Source: Betaproteobacteria bacterium (GTDB lineage: Bacteria > Pseudomonadota > Gammaproteobacteria > Burkholderiales > JAHFQX01). From it: 42,111 nucleotides of DNA. Each line of letters opens with the position of its first letter. Position 1 is the first letter of the stretch. This document shows positions 5,063-31,769 of the stretch, piece after piece. Under the pieces are notes generated by a model. It was not told the DNA's origin. It ran no database searches and was given only the letters and a program-made list of their open reading frames with translations. The DNA is taken from contig JAHFQX010000024.1 of the NCBI GenBank assembly GCA_023259135.1, positions 1-42,111 on the forward strand, written 5' to 3'. Position numbers and translations under genes: made by a program.

Positions 5063-5231
5063 CCGCGGGGCCTGTCCTTAGAGCTTGTCCGTAAATCCCG
5101 GCAAACTCGAAGGGGTGCCCCAGGCCCGACAACCGCGCCTTAGCAACGGCGAGGGAACAACCCCGCGGCAGGTGGCCGGCGACAGTGGTTTTTCAATAGC
5201 CCGTCGGGATCGAACTGCGCGGTCGCTGGGT

Positions 5232-5237
5232 TATAAT
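5232..5237 (+). promoter_or_regulatory. Consensus -10 box upstream of the RNB gene
   Basis: A perfect TATAAT lies 30 bases before the ATG at 5268. No good -35 is seen 17 bases upstream. A start near 5244 would give a leader of about 24 bases without a clear Shine-Dalgarno sequence. The rest of the 5063-5231 gap shows no gene or convincing structure. Confidence 0.45.
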
Positions 5238-5267
5238 CCCTGCCCTTGCTTTTCCCTCCCCGTTTTC

Positions 5268-7139
5268 ATGCACATCTTCTACGAAGAAGAGGGCAGCCTC
5301 AAGGCCGGCACCGTGCTGGCCGATCAGACCACTTCGCTCCAGGTGGAAGCCCTCCATGGCAAGCGCGGCAAGCTCAAGGCTCAAGCGGTGCTGCTGCGCT
5401 TCGAGCGGCCCACGCCGGCGGAACTGACGGTTCAAGCCCAGGCCCTGGCCGCTTCCTTGGATGCCGATTTTCTTTGGGAAGTCTGCCCCCAGGAGGAATT
5501 TGCCTACGAGGATCTGGCGCGGGAATATTTCGGCCAGGCTCCGGACCCGGTGCAAGCGGCGGGATTGCTGCTCAAGCTGCACGGCTGCCCGATGCACTTT
5601 TACAAAAAGGGCCGGGGCCGCTACAAATCCGCGCCCGCCGATGCCCTCAAGGCCGCCCTGGCCAGCGTGGAGCGCAAGCGCCTGCAAGCCGAAGCCCAAC
5701 GAGTCTACGTGGAACAGCTCACCGCCTTCGCTCTGCCCGAGGATTTCCGCCCGCTGCTGCCGCGCCTGCTCTACAAGCCCGACAAGGCCGGCATCGAGTG
5801 GAAGGCGCTGGAAGCCGCTTGCCACGCCGCCAAACTGTCGCCGGCCCATCTGCTGGAAAAATGCGGCGGCATTCCCTCTTCCCGGGATTATCACCTGCAG
5901 CGCTTCCTGCTGGAGCACTTCCCGGAAGGAACCGCCTTCCCCGAGTTGCCGGCGCCGGCCGACGCGGACTTGCTCGATGCCGGAGTGCAGGCCTTCAGCA
6001 TCGACGACGTCACCACCACCGAGATCGACGATGCCTTCTCGGTGGCGTCCCTGCCCGGCGGCGGCTGGCGGGTGGGCATCCACATCGCCGCGCCGGCCCT
6101 GGGCGTGCATTCCGGCGACGGCTTGGATGCCGTCGCCCGGCGGCGGCTGTCCACGGTCTACATGCCGGGAGACAAGATCACCATGCTGCCCGAGGCGGTG
6201 ATCCATCGCTACACCTTGGGAGAAAGCCTGCCACGCCCCGCCTGCTCCCTCTATCTCACCCTGTCCCCCGAGCTGGACATCACGGATCGGGAAACCCGCC
6301 TGGAGCAGGTCACCATCGCCGCCAATCTGCGCCACGACGCGCTAGAGCCGGTGTTCAACGAGGCCACCCTGGCCCAGGGCAAGATCGACCATCCGTTCGG
6401 CCCCGAGCTCAAGCTGCTGTGGCAACTGGCGCAGCGCCTGGAGGCGGGGCGGGGCAAGGCCAACGAAGCGCAGCGGGGCCTGGATTACAACTTCTACGTC
6501 GAGGCGGAGCGCATCCGCATCGCGCCTCGACGCCGCGGCAGCCCCCTGGACAAGCTGGTGGCGGAACTGATGATCCACGCCAATGCGGAATGGGGGCGGC
6601 AACTGGCGGAACACGGCATTCCCGGCATTTACCGGGTGCAGAGCAACGGCAAGGTGAAGATGAGCACGGTGCCCGCCCCCCACCAGGGCCTGGGAGTGGC
6701 CCAATATCTCTGGGCCAGCTCGCCGTTGCGGCGCTATGTGGACCTTCTTAACCAGCGGCAGATCATCGCCATGATCCGCGGCGATGCCCCGGCTTACGAG
6801 CCGGGCTCGGAAATCCTCATGGCGGCGATGCGGGAATTCGAATTGGCCTACGAGGTCTACGGAGATTTTCAGCGCACCATGGAGCGCTACTGGTGTTTGC
6901 GCTGGCTGCTCCAGGAAAACGTCCGCGAGATCGGCGCGGAAGTGGTTCGGGAAAGCTTGGTCCGCCTGGAAGGCTTGCCCCTGGTGACCAAGGCGCTGGG
7001 CATGACGGCCCTCGCGGAGGGTAGTGCGGTACGAGTGGCCGTCGGCTCCATTGATTTGCTGGATCTCACCTTGCAGTGCCGCTATGTGGAAAACCGCGAT
7101 AGATTTTCCCATCCGTTTTTTGATCTAGATCAAAAATGA
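5268..7139 (+). CDS. RNase II-like RNB-domain ribonuclease
   Basis: A 623-residue protein with the RNB catalytic fold of RNase II/R exoribonucleases, which degrade single-stranded RNA 3' to 5'. The N-terminal half is a poorly conserved RNA-binding part beginning HIFYEEEGSLKAGTV. The active-site block is AFSIDDVTTTEIDDAFSV (about 243-260). In E. coli RNase II this block has four Asp; here the second is Glu, and the other three are present. Later RNB motifs include STVYMPGDKITMLPEAV and ASSPLRRYVDLLNQRQI. No classical C-terminal S1 domain is obvious. The N-terminal start was set at ATG 5268 because an upstream extension would cover the TATAAT box and is low-complexity. A separate true RNase R lies at 20476-22674, so this is a second, more divergent family member, of the kind found beside TonB and aroE in some methylotroph-like genomes. 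Confidence 0.85.
   Translation: MHIFYEEEGSLKAGTVLADQTTSLQVEALHGKRGKLKAQAVLLRFERPTPAELTVQAQALAASLDADFLWEVCPQEEFAYEDLAREYFGQAPDPVQAAGLLLKLHGCPMHFYKKGRGRYKSAPADALKAALASVERKRLQAEAQRVYVEQLTAFALPEDFRPLLPRLLYKPDKAGIEWKALEAACHAAKLSPAHLLEKCGGIPSSRDYHLQRFLLEHFPEGTAFPELPAPADADLLDAGVQAFSIDDVTTTEIDDAFSVASLPGGGWRVGIHIAAPALGVHSGDGLDAVARRRLSTVYMPGDKITMLPEAVIHRYTLGESLPRPACSLYLTLSPELDITDRETRLEQVTIAANLRHDALEPVFNEATLAQGKIDHPFGPELKLLWQLAQRLEAGRGKANEAQRGLDYNFYVEAERIRIAPRRRGSPLDKLVAELMIHANAEWGRQLAEHGIPGIYRVQSNGKVKMSTVPAPHQGLGVAQYLWASSPLRRYVDLLNQRQIIAMIRGDAPAYEPGSEILMAAMREFELAYEVYGDFQRTMERYWCLRWLLQENVREIGAEVVRESLVRLEGLPLVTKALGMTALAEGSAVRVAVGSIDLLDLTLQCRYVENRDRFSHPFFDLDQK
7117..7136. promoter_or_regulatory. Perfect 20-bp palindrome containing an FNR/ANR-type box
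   Basis: The centre is TTGATCTAGATCAA (7120-7133), matching the FNR consensus TTGAT-N4-ATCAA in all ten specified bases. The symmetry extends to 20 bp and ends at the stop codon of the RNB gene. It lies about 110 bases before the preferred start of the membrane-protein gene. If the box sits at -41.5, transcription would start near 7168. The -10 there is weak (TAGGTT), as is common at activated promoters. No fnr gene is visible in the window. Confidence 0.5.
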
Positions 7140-7244
7140 CCTATGATGAAACGGTTAGGTTTAGGGCTTGGAAGCAGTGGCCCCGTACAAAGAGGCGTTT
7201 TGAGCGGGGCATTTGTTAACGCATTTTGGCGAAAGGGAAATCCC

Positions 7245-7727
7245 GTGAGAAGATTTGCTATCCCGGTCATGCTGGCCGGATTGTGCGGCGGATTGGCGGA
7301 AGTCGTTTGGGTTGCCCTGTACAGTTCCTTCACGCAAGCGAGCGGCGTGGAGGTGGCCCGCCAGGTTACGGCCACCCTGTTCCCGTCGTCGGCGGCTTCT
7401 GCGCTCGCCCCTGCGTTTGGCATCGTCATCCATCTCCTGCTTTCGCTTGCGCTGGGTTTTGCCTTTGCCTGGTTGGTTTGGATACCCTTCTCCAGGCAGA
7501 TGAGGGCTGCGACCGCCATGATCATCGCAGTCGCGACGCTGACATTCGTCTGGGCGGCCAACTTCTTTGTAATACTGCCGGCACTCAATCCCGTATTTGT
7601 CACCCTGATGCCTTACGGCGCGACCCTGCTTTCCAAGGCATTATTCGGAATCGCGATGGCATGGGGCCTGCAGCGGGGGCCTGAGCTGGAAATGGAACCA
7701 GCCGCCTCTTGGGCTCGCCAACCCTGA
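7245..7727 (+). CDS. Small integral membrane protein, function unknown
   Basis: A 160-residue protein that I do not recognise. Four hydrophobic helices are visible, roughly at residues 5-27, 54-77, 85-106 and 113-140, with short polar loops and a hydrophilic tail of about 15 residues. GTG 7245 is preferred as start because AGGGA precedes it by seven bases. An upstream ATG at 7143 in frame would lie before the transcription start predicted from the FNR-like box. The gene directly follows the RNB gene but probably has its own promoter. Downstream, at 7741, a decayed transposase fragment abuts the C-terminus, so the last residues (after about 145) may derive from the insertion junction. An oxygen-responsive role is inferred from the upstream box only. 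Confidence 0.6.
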   Translation: MRRFAIPVMLAGLCGGLAEVVWVALYSSFTQASGVEVARQVTATLFPSSAASALAPAFGIVIHLLLSLALGFAFAWLVWIPFSRQMRAATAMIIAVATLTFVWAANFFVILPALNPVFVTLMPYGATLLSKALFGIAMAWGLQRGPELEMEPAASWARQP

Positions 7728-7740
7728 GTGTCGACCGAAT

Positions 7741-7908
7741 TGTCGCTTTTTTCAGGATTTCGTTCTCCAGCTTCAGGCGGGCAACTTCATCCAGGTGCCC
7801 AGGGTCTGTTCCACCAGACTCAGTTCCCTCGCCCACCCGCTTGACCGCCTGCTCTTCGAACTCGGCGGTGCATTCCTGCCCCGGTATCTTGATCCTCTTC
7901 GTCTCCAA
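7741..7908 (-). pseudogene. IS3-type transposase orfA remnant
   Basis: Read on the minus strand from a TTG at 7908, the sequence gives METKRIKIPGQECTAEF and EEQAVKRVGEG. This matches the start of the helix-turn-helix OrfA of a subgroup of IS3-family elements. The part that should hold the rest of the HTH is missing. The frame then continues directly into RLKLENEILKKAT, the leucine-zipper end of OrfA. The usual tail and all of orfB are absent, and no terminal inverted repeats were found. It is therefore an internally deleted, dead fragment. The adjoining 7909-8042 stretch has no recognisable gene and may be further debris. Confidence 0.6.
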
Positions 7909-8042: not shown

Positions 8043-8071
8043 TCGACATAGGGCGTGGGCTCGCATACAAT
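8043..8071 (+). promoter_or_regulatory. Sigma-70-like promoter upstream of tonB
   Basis: TCGACA (8043-8048) and TACAAT (8066-8071) are separated by exactly 17 bases, each one mismatch from consensus. Transcription would start near 8078. If so, translation would have to begin at ATG 8106 rather than ATG 8070, because the -10 box overlaps the upstream ATG. Confidence 0.5.
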
Positions 8072-13911: not shown

Positions 13912-15882
13912 TCAAATTACCCGATCATTACCCCCGTCCACCGGAATCTGGGCCCCCGTCGTCTTGGCGAACAGAGGGCCGCACAGCTCCGCTGCCAGTT
14001 CCGCCACGTCGCGACTGGTCACCTCGGTCTTGAGAACATTGTTCCTCTTGTATTCATCCACGGTAAGACCGTAATGCTTGGCGCGGGAGGCGAGCACCTC
14101 TTCCGTCCATAGGCCGGTGTCGAAAACGGCGTTCGGATGCAGACTGTTGATCCGAATGTTGTCGCTTCCCCATTCCAGGGCCGCCACCCGGGCCAACTGA
14201 TTAAGCGCCGCCTTGGATGCCGAGTAAGCCGCCGCGCCAGGCCCCGGCGCAAGGACGTTCTTGGAGCCGATTACCACCACCCTCCCGCCGCGCGGCGCAA
14301 GCTTGAGCAGCGGGTGGAATTCCCGCATCAGGGATTGATTAACATCCAGATTGATTGTCATCACACGCCGCCATTCGTCCGACGCAAGACTCTCGATCCG
14401 GCAACCGCCCGGGAAGATACCGGCGTTTAGCACCAGCATGTCGAGCCCGCCAAAACGGTCTGCTGTTCGCTCCAGAACTTGCGTCATGGCCTCGGGACTC
14501 GTGAGATCACAAGTGACAGCCAGGTAATCCGGGCGACGGTAAAGGGTCTCGATGGCTGGGTTTAGGTCGACACCGACCACCGCGGCCCCTCTCGCCAGCA
14601 AAGACTCGACACAGGCCTTGCCGATACCCGAGGCCGCGCCTGTAACCAGCGCCACCTCCCCCGCGAACGCGGCCGGCTTGCCGCCCTTCTTCAGCTTGGC
14701 CTGCTCCAGATCCCAATACTCGACATCGAAGATGTCCTGTGCCGGTAGCGCCCGGTAACCGCCAAGCGCCGTTGCCCGGCGGATAATATCCATCGTGTGC
14801 TCATAAATCTCGGCCACGATGGCTGCATCCTTCGCCGTACGGCCGACCGCGCACATGCCCAGTTCCGGATCCAGCACCACGCGAGGCGCGGGATCGAGCA
14901 TCGTCTTGCGCTCCTGCGCCTTCGGCTCGTGCTCGGCAAAATAGGCCCGGTACTCTTCCGCGTAGGCCTTCACGTCACGGCCAACCATGGGCAGACGCTT
15001 GGTGCGGATCACATGGTCCGGCGTAGCCGGACCCTGGCGAGCCACCACAGCCAGGTCGGAACGCCTCGCGAAACTCAGGCAGTTATGATCCGCGTGCCGC
15101 GAAAGGATTACCGGAGCGCCGGCCACACCCGAGATCTCCTGCCGCAAACGGGCCATATCCATGACCGCCGGCGCGGCAACCGGGGTGGGCGGCTCCCGCG
15201 CATCCCAGGCATCGTGTCTGCGAAGGTAGTCCTCGGCCAAGCCGACGAGATGGATCATTCGTTCGTAAGATTCCTTGGCGGCCTCTCCGAAAGAAAAGAT
15301 GCCATGATTGAGCAGCACCATGCCGATGGTGCCCGGCCCAGACTCGGCGGCGAACCGCTCGGCGCACAGGCGGGCCAGATCAAACCCCGGCATGACATAG
15401 GGAATCACGACGACCTGCTCGCCATAGATCTCGCGAATGCGCGCCTCGCCGTCCACGCCGTTGGTCACCGTCACGACCGCGTCGGCATGGGTATGGTCGA
15501 CAAATTTGTAGGGCAGGATGGCGTGGAGAATGGCCTCCACCGACGGCACGGGCGCCGAAGCGCGCGTTAGCTGAGTAACCAGTTCGTTGACCATCTGGGG
15601 ATCGGAAAGCGCCGGCAGCTTTGCCAAGCGGCGCAGGTGCTCCGCCCGCAAGGGCGAGAAACCGGTTGCCTCGATTTTCTCCAAATCCCAGCCACTGCCC
15701 TTGACATAAAGAATCTCCTCGTCTTCGCCGAAGGCATTTTTCTCGACCACCTTGACCGAGGTATTGCCGCCTCCGTGCAGCACAAGCGACTTGTCCCTTC
15801 CGAGAAGGCGGGACGTATAGACACGCAAAGCGACATCGCCTACATGTCGGTGTGACTCTTCTTCATTCCATAGGTTGTTCAT
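13912..15882 (-). CDS. Bifunctional class II aldolase / short-chain dehydrogenase
   Basis: A 656-residue fusion. The N-terminal part (about 1-400) is a class II aldolase/adducin domain: LHGGGNTSVK, KGSGWDL, VDHTHADAVV with the metal-binding HTH, and a further ligand in LLNHGIFSFG. The C-terminal part (from about 415) is an SDR with ALVTGAASGIGKACVE, the NAG motif LVLNAGIF, and the catalytic Ser of VIGSKN and YSASK. Fusions of this kind are often named rhamnulose-1-phosphate aldolase/lactaldehyde dehydrogenase after B. subtilis YuxG relatives. No rhamnose gene is here; instead the neighbour is mtnA. That suggests cleavage of 5-methylthio- or 5-deoxy-ribulose-1-phosphate to DHAP and an aldehyde, with the SDR half acting on the aldehyde. 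ATG 15882 (MNNLWNEEE) resembles family starts; ATG 15906 is an alternative eight codons earlier. Confidence 0.88.
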   Translation of the reverse strand: MNNLWNEEESHRHVGDVALRVYTSRLLGRDKSLVLHGGGNTSVKVVEKNAFGEDEEILYVKGSGWDLEKIEATGFSPLRAEHLRRLAKLPALSDPQMVNELVTQLTRASAPVPSVEAILHAILPYKFVDHTHADAVVTVTNGVDGEARIREIYGEQVVVIPYVMPGFDLARLCAERFAAESGPGTIGMVLLNHGIFSFGEAAKESYERMIHLVGLAEDYLRRHDAWDAREPPTPVAAPAVMDMARLRQEISGVAGAPVILSRHADHNCLSFARRSDLAVVARQGPATPDHVIRTKRLPMVGRDVKAYAEEYRAYFAEHEPKAQERKTMLDPAPRVVLDPELGMCAVGRTAKDAAIVAEIYEHTMDIIRRATALGGYRALPAQDIFDVEYWDLEQAKLKKGGKPAAFAGEVALVTGAASGIGKACVESLLARGAAVVGVDLNPAIETLYRRPDYLAVTCDLTSPEAMTQVLERTADRFGGLDMLVLNAGIFPGGCRIESLASDEWRRVMTINLDVNQSLMREFHPLLKLAPRGGRVVVIGSKNVLAPGPGAAAYSASKAALNQLARVAALEWGSDNIRINSLHPNAVFDTGLWTEEVLASRAKHYGLTVDEYKRNNVLKTEVTSRDVAELAAELCGPLFAKTTGAQIPVDGGNDRVI

Positions 15883-30614: not shown

Positions 30615-31769
30615 CTAGCGAACCGCCAGCGCCGCCAGCGTGCCATTCCGGGTTTGGACCAGCACCCCGCCCTCGATGGGCTGCGGGGGCGCCGTCACCG
30701 GGCTGCCGTCGGTAGGCACGCGGGCCGCGAAAGCTCCGTCCTCGCGGCGCAGAAAATGCACGAAGCCTTGCCCATCCGCCACCGCCAAGTAGTCCCCCGC
30801 CACCGCCGGGGCGGTGAGCTGGCGTCCGGCCAGCTGGGTCTGCTTCCAAACGCTGGCGCCGCTGCGCCAGTCCAAGGCCAGCACCGCGTCCCGGTCGTCG
30901 GTGACGTATAGATGGCCGCCGGCCCCGACCAGTCCGGCCGTGCTGGAAATATCCCGGGACCATTGCTGGGCTCCGCTGCGCGGATCGAAACAAGCCACCC
31001 GCCCCTGGTACGCCACCGCGCAGACCTCGGTATCCCTCACCACCGGCAACCCCACCACGTCGGTAACCCGCTCCAATTCGGTGGCCCCCTTGGGCAAAGC
31101 CACCGTCGCTTCCCAGCCGATCAGGCCGGATTGCAAATCCAAGGCCACTAATTTGCCCCCGGGAAATCCGGCGAACACCCCGCCGCGATCCATCACCACT
31201 CCCGCCACCGAGCGGATCGTCAAAGCCGGGCTGGAAGGCCGCTGGTAAACCCACTTGCGCTTGCCGTCGGCGGCATTCAAGCCAAAAATCCGCCCATCGC
31301 CCGAGCGGACCACCACGATCCCTTCGGCGATTTGCGGCGGGCTCAACACCTCGCTGGACACCGCGGTTTTCCATTTCAAGGCGCCGCCGGCGTCGAAAGC
31401 CAGCACTTCCCCCTTGGGAGTGCCCACCACCACCCGCTCGCGATCCGCCCCCACTCCCGCCGACAGCCGCTGTTGGGCCTCGATCCGGCGACTCGACTGC
31501 CCCCCGCCCAGCTCGAAACGGACGATCTGCCCGGCCTCCCCGGCCGCCCAGACGCCGTCGCCGGCGACGGCGGGGACGAAAACATAGCGGCCGGCGACGC
31601 CCACCTGGCCCTGCCAGATCACGCGGGCCGCCGCCAAGGGCTGGAAATCCGGCAGCGGCGCAACCTTGGGACGGGGTCCCGCCACCCGCTCGTAAACGTC
31701 GGATACCGTGGAACATCCGGCCAGCGCCAAAATCGCCGCCCACGCCACGCCCCACGCACGAATCTTCAC
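30615..31769 (-). CDS. bamB: Outer-membrane assembly lipoprotein BamB
   Basis: BamB is a beta-propeller lipoprotein of the BAM complex that inserts beta-barrel proteins into the outer membrane. The 384 residues open with a lipoprotein signal peptide ending in the lipobox LALAGC (Cys at about 19). The rest is a repeated PQQ-like WD pattern with units such as [40 protein letters not shown] and [20 protein letters not shown]. The start is GTG 31769 and overlaps the yfgM stop (GTGA), so the two are translationally coupled. Confidence 0.95.

Follow-up and report, generated by a model that had tools for sequence, protein, structure and literature searches.

In Escherichia coli, 19 of the 23 promoters of known start that are directly activated by FNR have the site at -41.5 ± 4, according to PMC3688515. 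The motif TTGATnnnnATCAA found at the locus described here is also that of the ANR regulon of Pseudomonas (PMC6588701) and of the DNR regulons of denitrifying beta-proteobacteria (PMC1274295). In the accessible parts of these two sources, no four-helix protein of the kind encoded at this locus is named as a target.

The locus lies in a stretch of 42,111 nt with a G+C content of 63.7%, referred to as the window, and its features are collected in Table 1. A first-pass annotation of this DNA had pointed to a perfect 20-bp palindrome with an FNR box adjoining the stop codon of an RNB-domain gene, and to a match at all ten specified bases of the FNR motif. Both observations were confirmed: the last base of the palindrome directly precedes the TGA stop of the RNB frame (7137–7139), and the box inside the palindrome agrees with TTGATnnnnATCAA at 10/10 specified bases.

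Table 1. Features of the locus, with positions in the window.
Feature	Position	Strand	Sequence or property	Basis
RNB-domain gene	5085–7139	+	non-conserved tail overlapping the box	open reading frame, domain match, tail comparison
Perfect 20-bp palindrome	7117–7136	.	TTTTTGATCTAGATCAAAAA	equal to its own reverse complement
Exact FNR-type box	7120–7133, centre 7126.5	.	TTGATCTAGATCAA	consensus match and family comparison
Alternative sigma-70-like promoter	7120–7147	+	TTGATC-16-TATGAT, overlaps the box	consensus scan, 9/12
Candidate -10 element	7156–7161	+	TAGGTT, 3/6 with TATAAT, 22 bp after the box	family-wide -10 peak
Candidate ribosome-binding sequence	7234–7240	+	AAGGGAA	by eye
Small membrane protein gene	7245–7727	+	160 amino acids from GTG 7245	open reading frame and starts of relatives

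The site had further been described as unlikely to arise by chance, which stands for the box; the length of the palindrome is weaker evidence than had been claimed. In dinucleotide shuffles, the exact box occurs on average 0.02 times per window. FNR-like sites with at most two mismatches, of which the window has 16, average 7.6 in shuffled sequence, the count of 16 being attained in 1 of 100 shuffles. Perfect 20-bp palindromes number two in the window versus a mean of 0.16 in the shuffles. The palindrome alone is mildly unusual and the exact box is rare; the length of the palindrome was rejected as proof of function because at least one such palindrome occurs in 30 of 200 shuffled windows. The second perfect palindrome of the window (31553–31572, CGCCGTCGCCGGCGACGGCG) is G+C-rich. 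Two one-mismatch FNR-like sites, TTGATTAACATCCA and TTGATTGTCATCAC, are arranged nearly in tandem at 14335–14364. A reading of the palindrome as an intrinsic terminator of the RNB gene was also rejected, since a search for a G+C-rich stem followed by a T run gave no match at 7117–7136 and the local RNA fold is unexceptional (z -1.8).

The overlap with the RNB frame had been taken to give the site a double function, constrained both as a binding site and by the last codons of the gene. The comparison of 29 RNB loci (L012–L040), with ends listed for 25, leaves this claim unsupported. In these 25 loci the common core ends near IDLLDLTL-CRF, short of the segment with the box, and is followed by tails of varying length and sequence. 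None of the 29 loci contains a match to TTGA-N6-TCAA. The tail in which the box sits is thus free, and a coding constraint on it was rejected.

The gene downstream, which stands between the RNB gene and a TonB-type gene, had been read as encoding a small membrane protein of four helices, and this was borne out. Its reading frame is open from ATG 7143 (7143–7727), a codon upstream of the predicted transcription start; GTG 7245 comes after the AAGGGAA sequence and agrees with where the relatives start, a ribosome-binding sequence being visible by eye at that place in most of them. The AlphaFold2 model, computed with 15 sequences, has a mean pLDDT of 91.3 and consists of long helices at residues 2–29, 55–82, 88–114 and 124–143, all four with a positive mean hydropathy. 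Among the residues identical in all 15 aligned members are E19, W22, H63, W103, N106, P112, S130 and K131. Neither Pfam nor NCBIfam gives the protein a match above the curated cut-offs, and a comparison of six family members with Pfam gave one chance-level match. A profile search of solved structures returned nothing up to E 1, and Foldseek against solved folds gave a best E of 1.4; the best VIA-align Z of 5.0 is equalled by unrelated helical proteins, and no function was drawn from it. No paper title on this family, which is nameless and so poorly searchable, appeared among the literature matches listed, and the accessible part of PMC8475189 holds nothing on it. Just past the gene, the minus strand at 7603–7908 carries what appears by eye to be an insertion-sequence OrfA remnant (no Pfam match), and a promoter-like TCGACA-17-TACAAT (8043–8071) spans the first start codon of the TonB-type frame.

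The search for relatives of the small protein used the protein sequence alone, without reference to the box, and covered genomes that all lie outside the genus and family of the host. The protein search returned none in 40 other genomes of the same order, a single convincing relative (genome G351) in 368 other genomes of the same class, and four loci in a species collection. A six-member profile detected the family in 2 of 398 other genomes of the same order, in 0 of 397 others in a phylum sample, and in 8 of 57 genomes of the order of G351 (G351 counted); a 15-member profile run on the class sample gave no further relatives. The four-helix family is rare and patchy, and many of its carrier genomes are drafts in many contigs. 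The set used to count boxes comprised 16 distinct members including the window, that is, 15 relatives. Dropped from it were L051–L057, seven weaker rows of the class search (E 5e-4 to 0.009, several with internal stops or inside larger other frames), a 45-residue fragment (L075), entries at the same places as the window or L050 (L062, L066, L076, L077), and L065, which is the other part, across a run of N, of the G487 gene already represented by L064. L064 itself, with a gap within the gene, was kept in the count and left out of the alignment and the tree. The predicted frame of L074 is cut by an in-frame TGA near its start, before the conserved part, and its first open-frame codon was therefore taken as the start.

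A box with at most one mismatch is located within 250 bp upstream of the start in 8 of the 16 members, or in 7 of the 15 relatives when the window is left out; the boxes were also placed by their distance to a conserved motif. The box is exact in five of the 16 (window, L058, L060, L069 and L074; 4/15 without the window) and has one mismatch in L050, L068 and L070. Its distance to the start is 69–106 bp in the seven boxed relatives and 69–125 bp in all eight boxed genes, the 93 bp of L074 depending on the start chosen at the first open-frame codon. Dinucleotide shuffles of the 16 upstream regions (400 rounds) yielded 0.10 boxed genes on average and 2 at most, versus the 8 observed. Among crude control genes, 5 of 227 have a box, and three of these five are boxes common to target genes (L058 minus; L081 plus and minus). 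The background rate is 4 in 52,829 positions in the 15 member loci outside the upstream stretch, and 4 in 42,098 positions in the window; the higher of the two, that of the window, gives a binomial value of 7e-8 for 7 of 15 members boxed within 300 bp, which overstates independence. The genes upstream of the boxed members are an RNB gene in the window, a DUF302 gene at L050, a YHS protein gene at L068 and, by eye, an ABC-2-type transporter frame at L058 and an FtsH-like frame at L060. Because these genes differ, the box goes with the small gene and not with RNB.

The expectation that relatives keeping the gene also keep the palindrome holds in part: the box is retained in those seven relatives and absent from the other eight (L059, L061, L063, L064, L067, L071, L072 and L073), among which is the nearest relative in the tree, L063, from the same order. 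Since these eight, the nearest included, lack it, control by the box appears to be common in the four-helix family, not universal. The stretches of L059, L061, L063, L064 and L071 contain no box with at most one mismatch anywhere; farther-off one-mismatch sites occur in those of L073 (one), L072 (one) and L067 (two). The tree requires four changes of the box label, which shows no clustering, 108 of 500 shuffles giving a count as low, and five of the eight boxed genes come from the order of G351 and are therefore not independent. The unboxed L059 and L061 stand directly after [NiFe] hydrogenase and maturation protease genes (by Pfam for L059, by eye for L061), and a gap of about 33 bp separates L071, in a cluster that includes a FixS gene, from the frame before it; these three genes may be read from an upstream promoter. 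A glycogen phosphorylase-like frame follows next downstream of L059 and L061 (by eye), and the genome that carries L071 as its second, unboxed copy is that of L074, which has an exact box.

The promoter geometry was analyzed by scoring, downstream of the eight boxes, the similarity to TATAAT at each spacing between 5 and 54 bp. The mean similarity peaks 21–22 bp after the box (3.75/6), and the highest mean outside 20–23 bp is 2.5. Shuffles equalled this peak at 22 bp in 0 of 2000 cases and anywhere in 2 of 2000; with the window left out, the count is 0 of 2000 for both. A spacing of 21–22 bp is what class II FNR promoters should show when their box is centred at -41.5. For the window, it predicts a transcription start near 7168, inside the interval 7140–7240.

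FNR regulators are recognized by N-terminal cysteines and an E-SR recognition helix, and proteins with this signature are encoded in the host genome. A search with HTH_Crp_2 gave six places over the cut-off. Three FNR-type proteins have clustered cysteines towards their N-terminal end, together with an ETVSR recognition helix, and score 266.3, 245.9 and 216.9 bits with the NCBIfam Fnr model (cut-off 228), two over the threshold and one just below. A fourth protein (L043) is DNR-like by similarity alone, its best solved relative being the DNR protein 3dkw (E 1.1e-33). The core of the motif alone cannot separate FNR from DNR. Proteins over the Fnr cut-off are present in 12 of 15 carrier genomes versus 1 of 14 control genomes, and matches to the model at E 0.001 in 15 of 15 and 10 of 14, respectively; in the genome with the boxed L060, the best protein reaches 93.6 bits and so stays below the cut-off.

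The whole assembly (2.58 Mb, 86 contigs) contains nine exact FNR boxes and no occurrence of the reversed control pattern. With genes assigned by Pfam, one exact box directly precedes hemN and another nirS, both named targets in the ANR and DNR regulons as given in the available text of PMC6588701 and PMC1274295. A further exact box is found 865 bp upstream of a COX1-type oxidase gene, the interval holding smaller frames, and the other five exact-box places outside the window have no Pfam-tested gene downstream. Given the boxes before hemN and nirS and these five places, an ordinary FNR-type regulon is visible in part, not whole, from the nine exact boxes. Two of them stand 291 bp apart on one contig (C53), the second about 100 bp before nirS. 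An HSP20 gene near another (L002) was dropped as an FNR target, as the box sits past its 3' end and therefore gives no evidence for one.

Taken together, the palindrome is probably a class II site for an activator of the CRP/FNR family, most likely FNR/ANR, which would activate the small membrane protein gene. The reading as a low-oxygen, FNR-type site is preferred because the site recurs, at the promoter spacing seen here, in about half of the relatives found; the low-oxygen induction suggested in the first-pass annotation would thus be the best reading, given boxes in 7/15 relatives, different gene settings and class II spacing. As read from the sequence, binding, its activating direction, oxygen as the signal and the start site would combine as follows: at low oxygen the FNR dimer would bind the box and, from its centre at 7126.5, help RNA polymerase to start near 7168 through the weak -10 TAGGTT, and the transcript would be translated from GTG 7245 into the membrane protein of four long helices. 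Class II activation from the same site by the DNR-like, nitric oxide-responsive protein, with nitrogen oxides rather than low oxygen itself as the signal, is unlikely. Such a regulator (L043) is encoded in the genome, nirS is preceded by an exact box, one boxed relative (L068) lies near a NorB-like gene, and the DNR motif in the accessible part of PMC1274295 is close to the FNR box. However, the consensus given there, CTTGATnnnnATCAAG, agrees with the window in its core and departs from it at the T before and the A after the core; three FNR-type genes are present; and the boxed L058, L060 and L069 have, by eye, no denitrification gene within a few kilobases.

The box might also serve repression, with TTGATC (7120) and TATGAT (7142) forming the promoter and FNR, bound across its -35, blocking it in low oxygen. 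TATGAT, 8 bp after the box, has 5/6 of the -10 consensus, better than the hexamer at 22 bp, and the combined elements reach 9/12 in the consensus scan; yet the other seven boxed genes have at most 3/6 at the 8-bp spacing and the family-wide peak lies at 21–22 bp, which makes repression very unlikely. Finally, the palindrome might lack any regulatory role, having arisen by chance in AT-rich tail codons or belonging to the end of the RNB transcript. The frequency of 20-bp palindromes in shuffled windows and the unboxed nearest relative fit this explanation, but the exact box is rare and recurs before relatives at promoter spacing, and the site has neither a terminator-like match nor a notable RNA fold, so that this explanation is highly improbable.

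If FNR-type activation is correct, a conserved membrane protein family that matches neither Pfam nor NCBIfam gains a low-oxygen regulatory context, and eight genomes each offer a promoter that can be tested. As to the function of the protein, the neighbours in some relatives allow a guess at respiration-linked handling of metal (copper) or redox. Four relatives in all adjoin metal-ATPase or copper-type genes: the boxed L050 (P-type ATPase with HMA domain, HMA protein, MerR regulator, cupredoxin and multicopper oxidase), the boxed L068 (HMA, YHS and a NorB cytochrome-like frame), the unboxed L073 (two metal-type ATPases with HMA or YHS, HMA protein and cytochrome c) and the unboxed L071 (FixS and P-type ATPases). 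No metal or copper-type genes were seen by eye in the stretches of L058, L060, L069 and L074. A tentative and unlikely extension is that the family is a dedicated low-oxygen factor for the handling of copper or heme-copper enzymes, FNR-controlled in several proteobacterial lineages, with the invariant E19, H63, N106 and K131 as a buried polar site in the bundle. Such a factor might, for instance, supply metal to cbb3 oxidase, nitric oxide reductase or nitrite reductase, or protect these enzymes; should the link to metal or oxidase hold, it would suggest that low-oxygen respiration has an assembly or protection factor so far unrecognised.

A comparison with CcoS/FixS and other genes of cbb3 oxidase maturation and copper handling reveals a likeness in gene context, with a FixS/CcoS gene in the cluster of L071 and copper genes (metal-type P-ATPase, HMA, YHS or multicopper oxidase) around L050, L068 and L073. 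By contrast, no relation of the small protein to any known family was found in sequence or solved fold. The promoter resembles the class II FNR-activated promoters of E. coli dmsABC, narGHJI and ydfZ, as far as these are described in the available part of PMC3688515, in its consensus box and in a -10 spacing that would place the box centre at -41.5. It differs from them in that the start is a predicted one, the target family is uncharacterised, and the box overlaps the end of the upstream coding region. On the FNR reading, a well-known regulator gains a further target, the small membrane protein gene, and the system itself is of a familiar kind.
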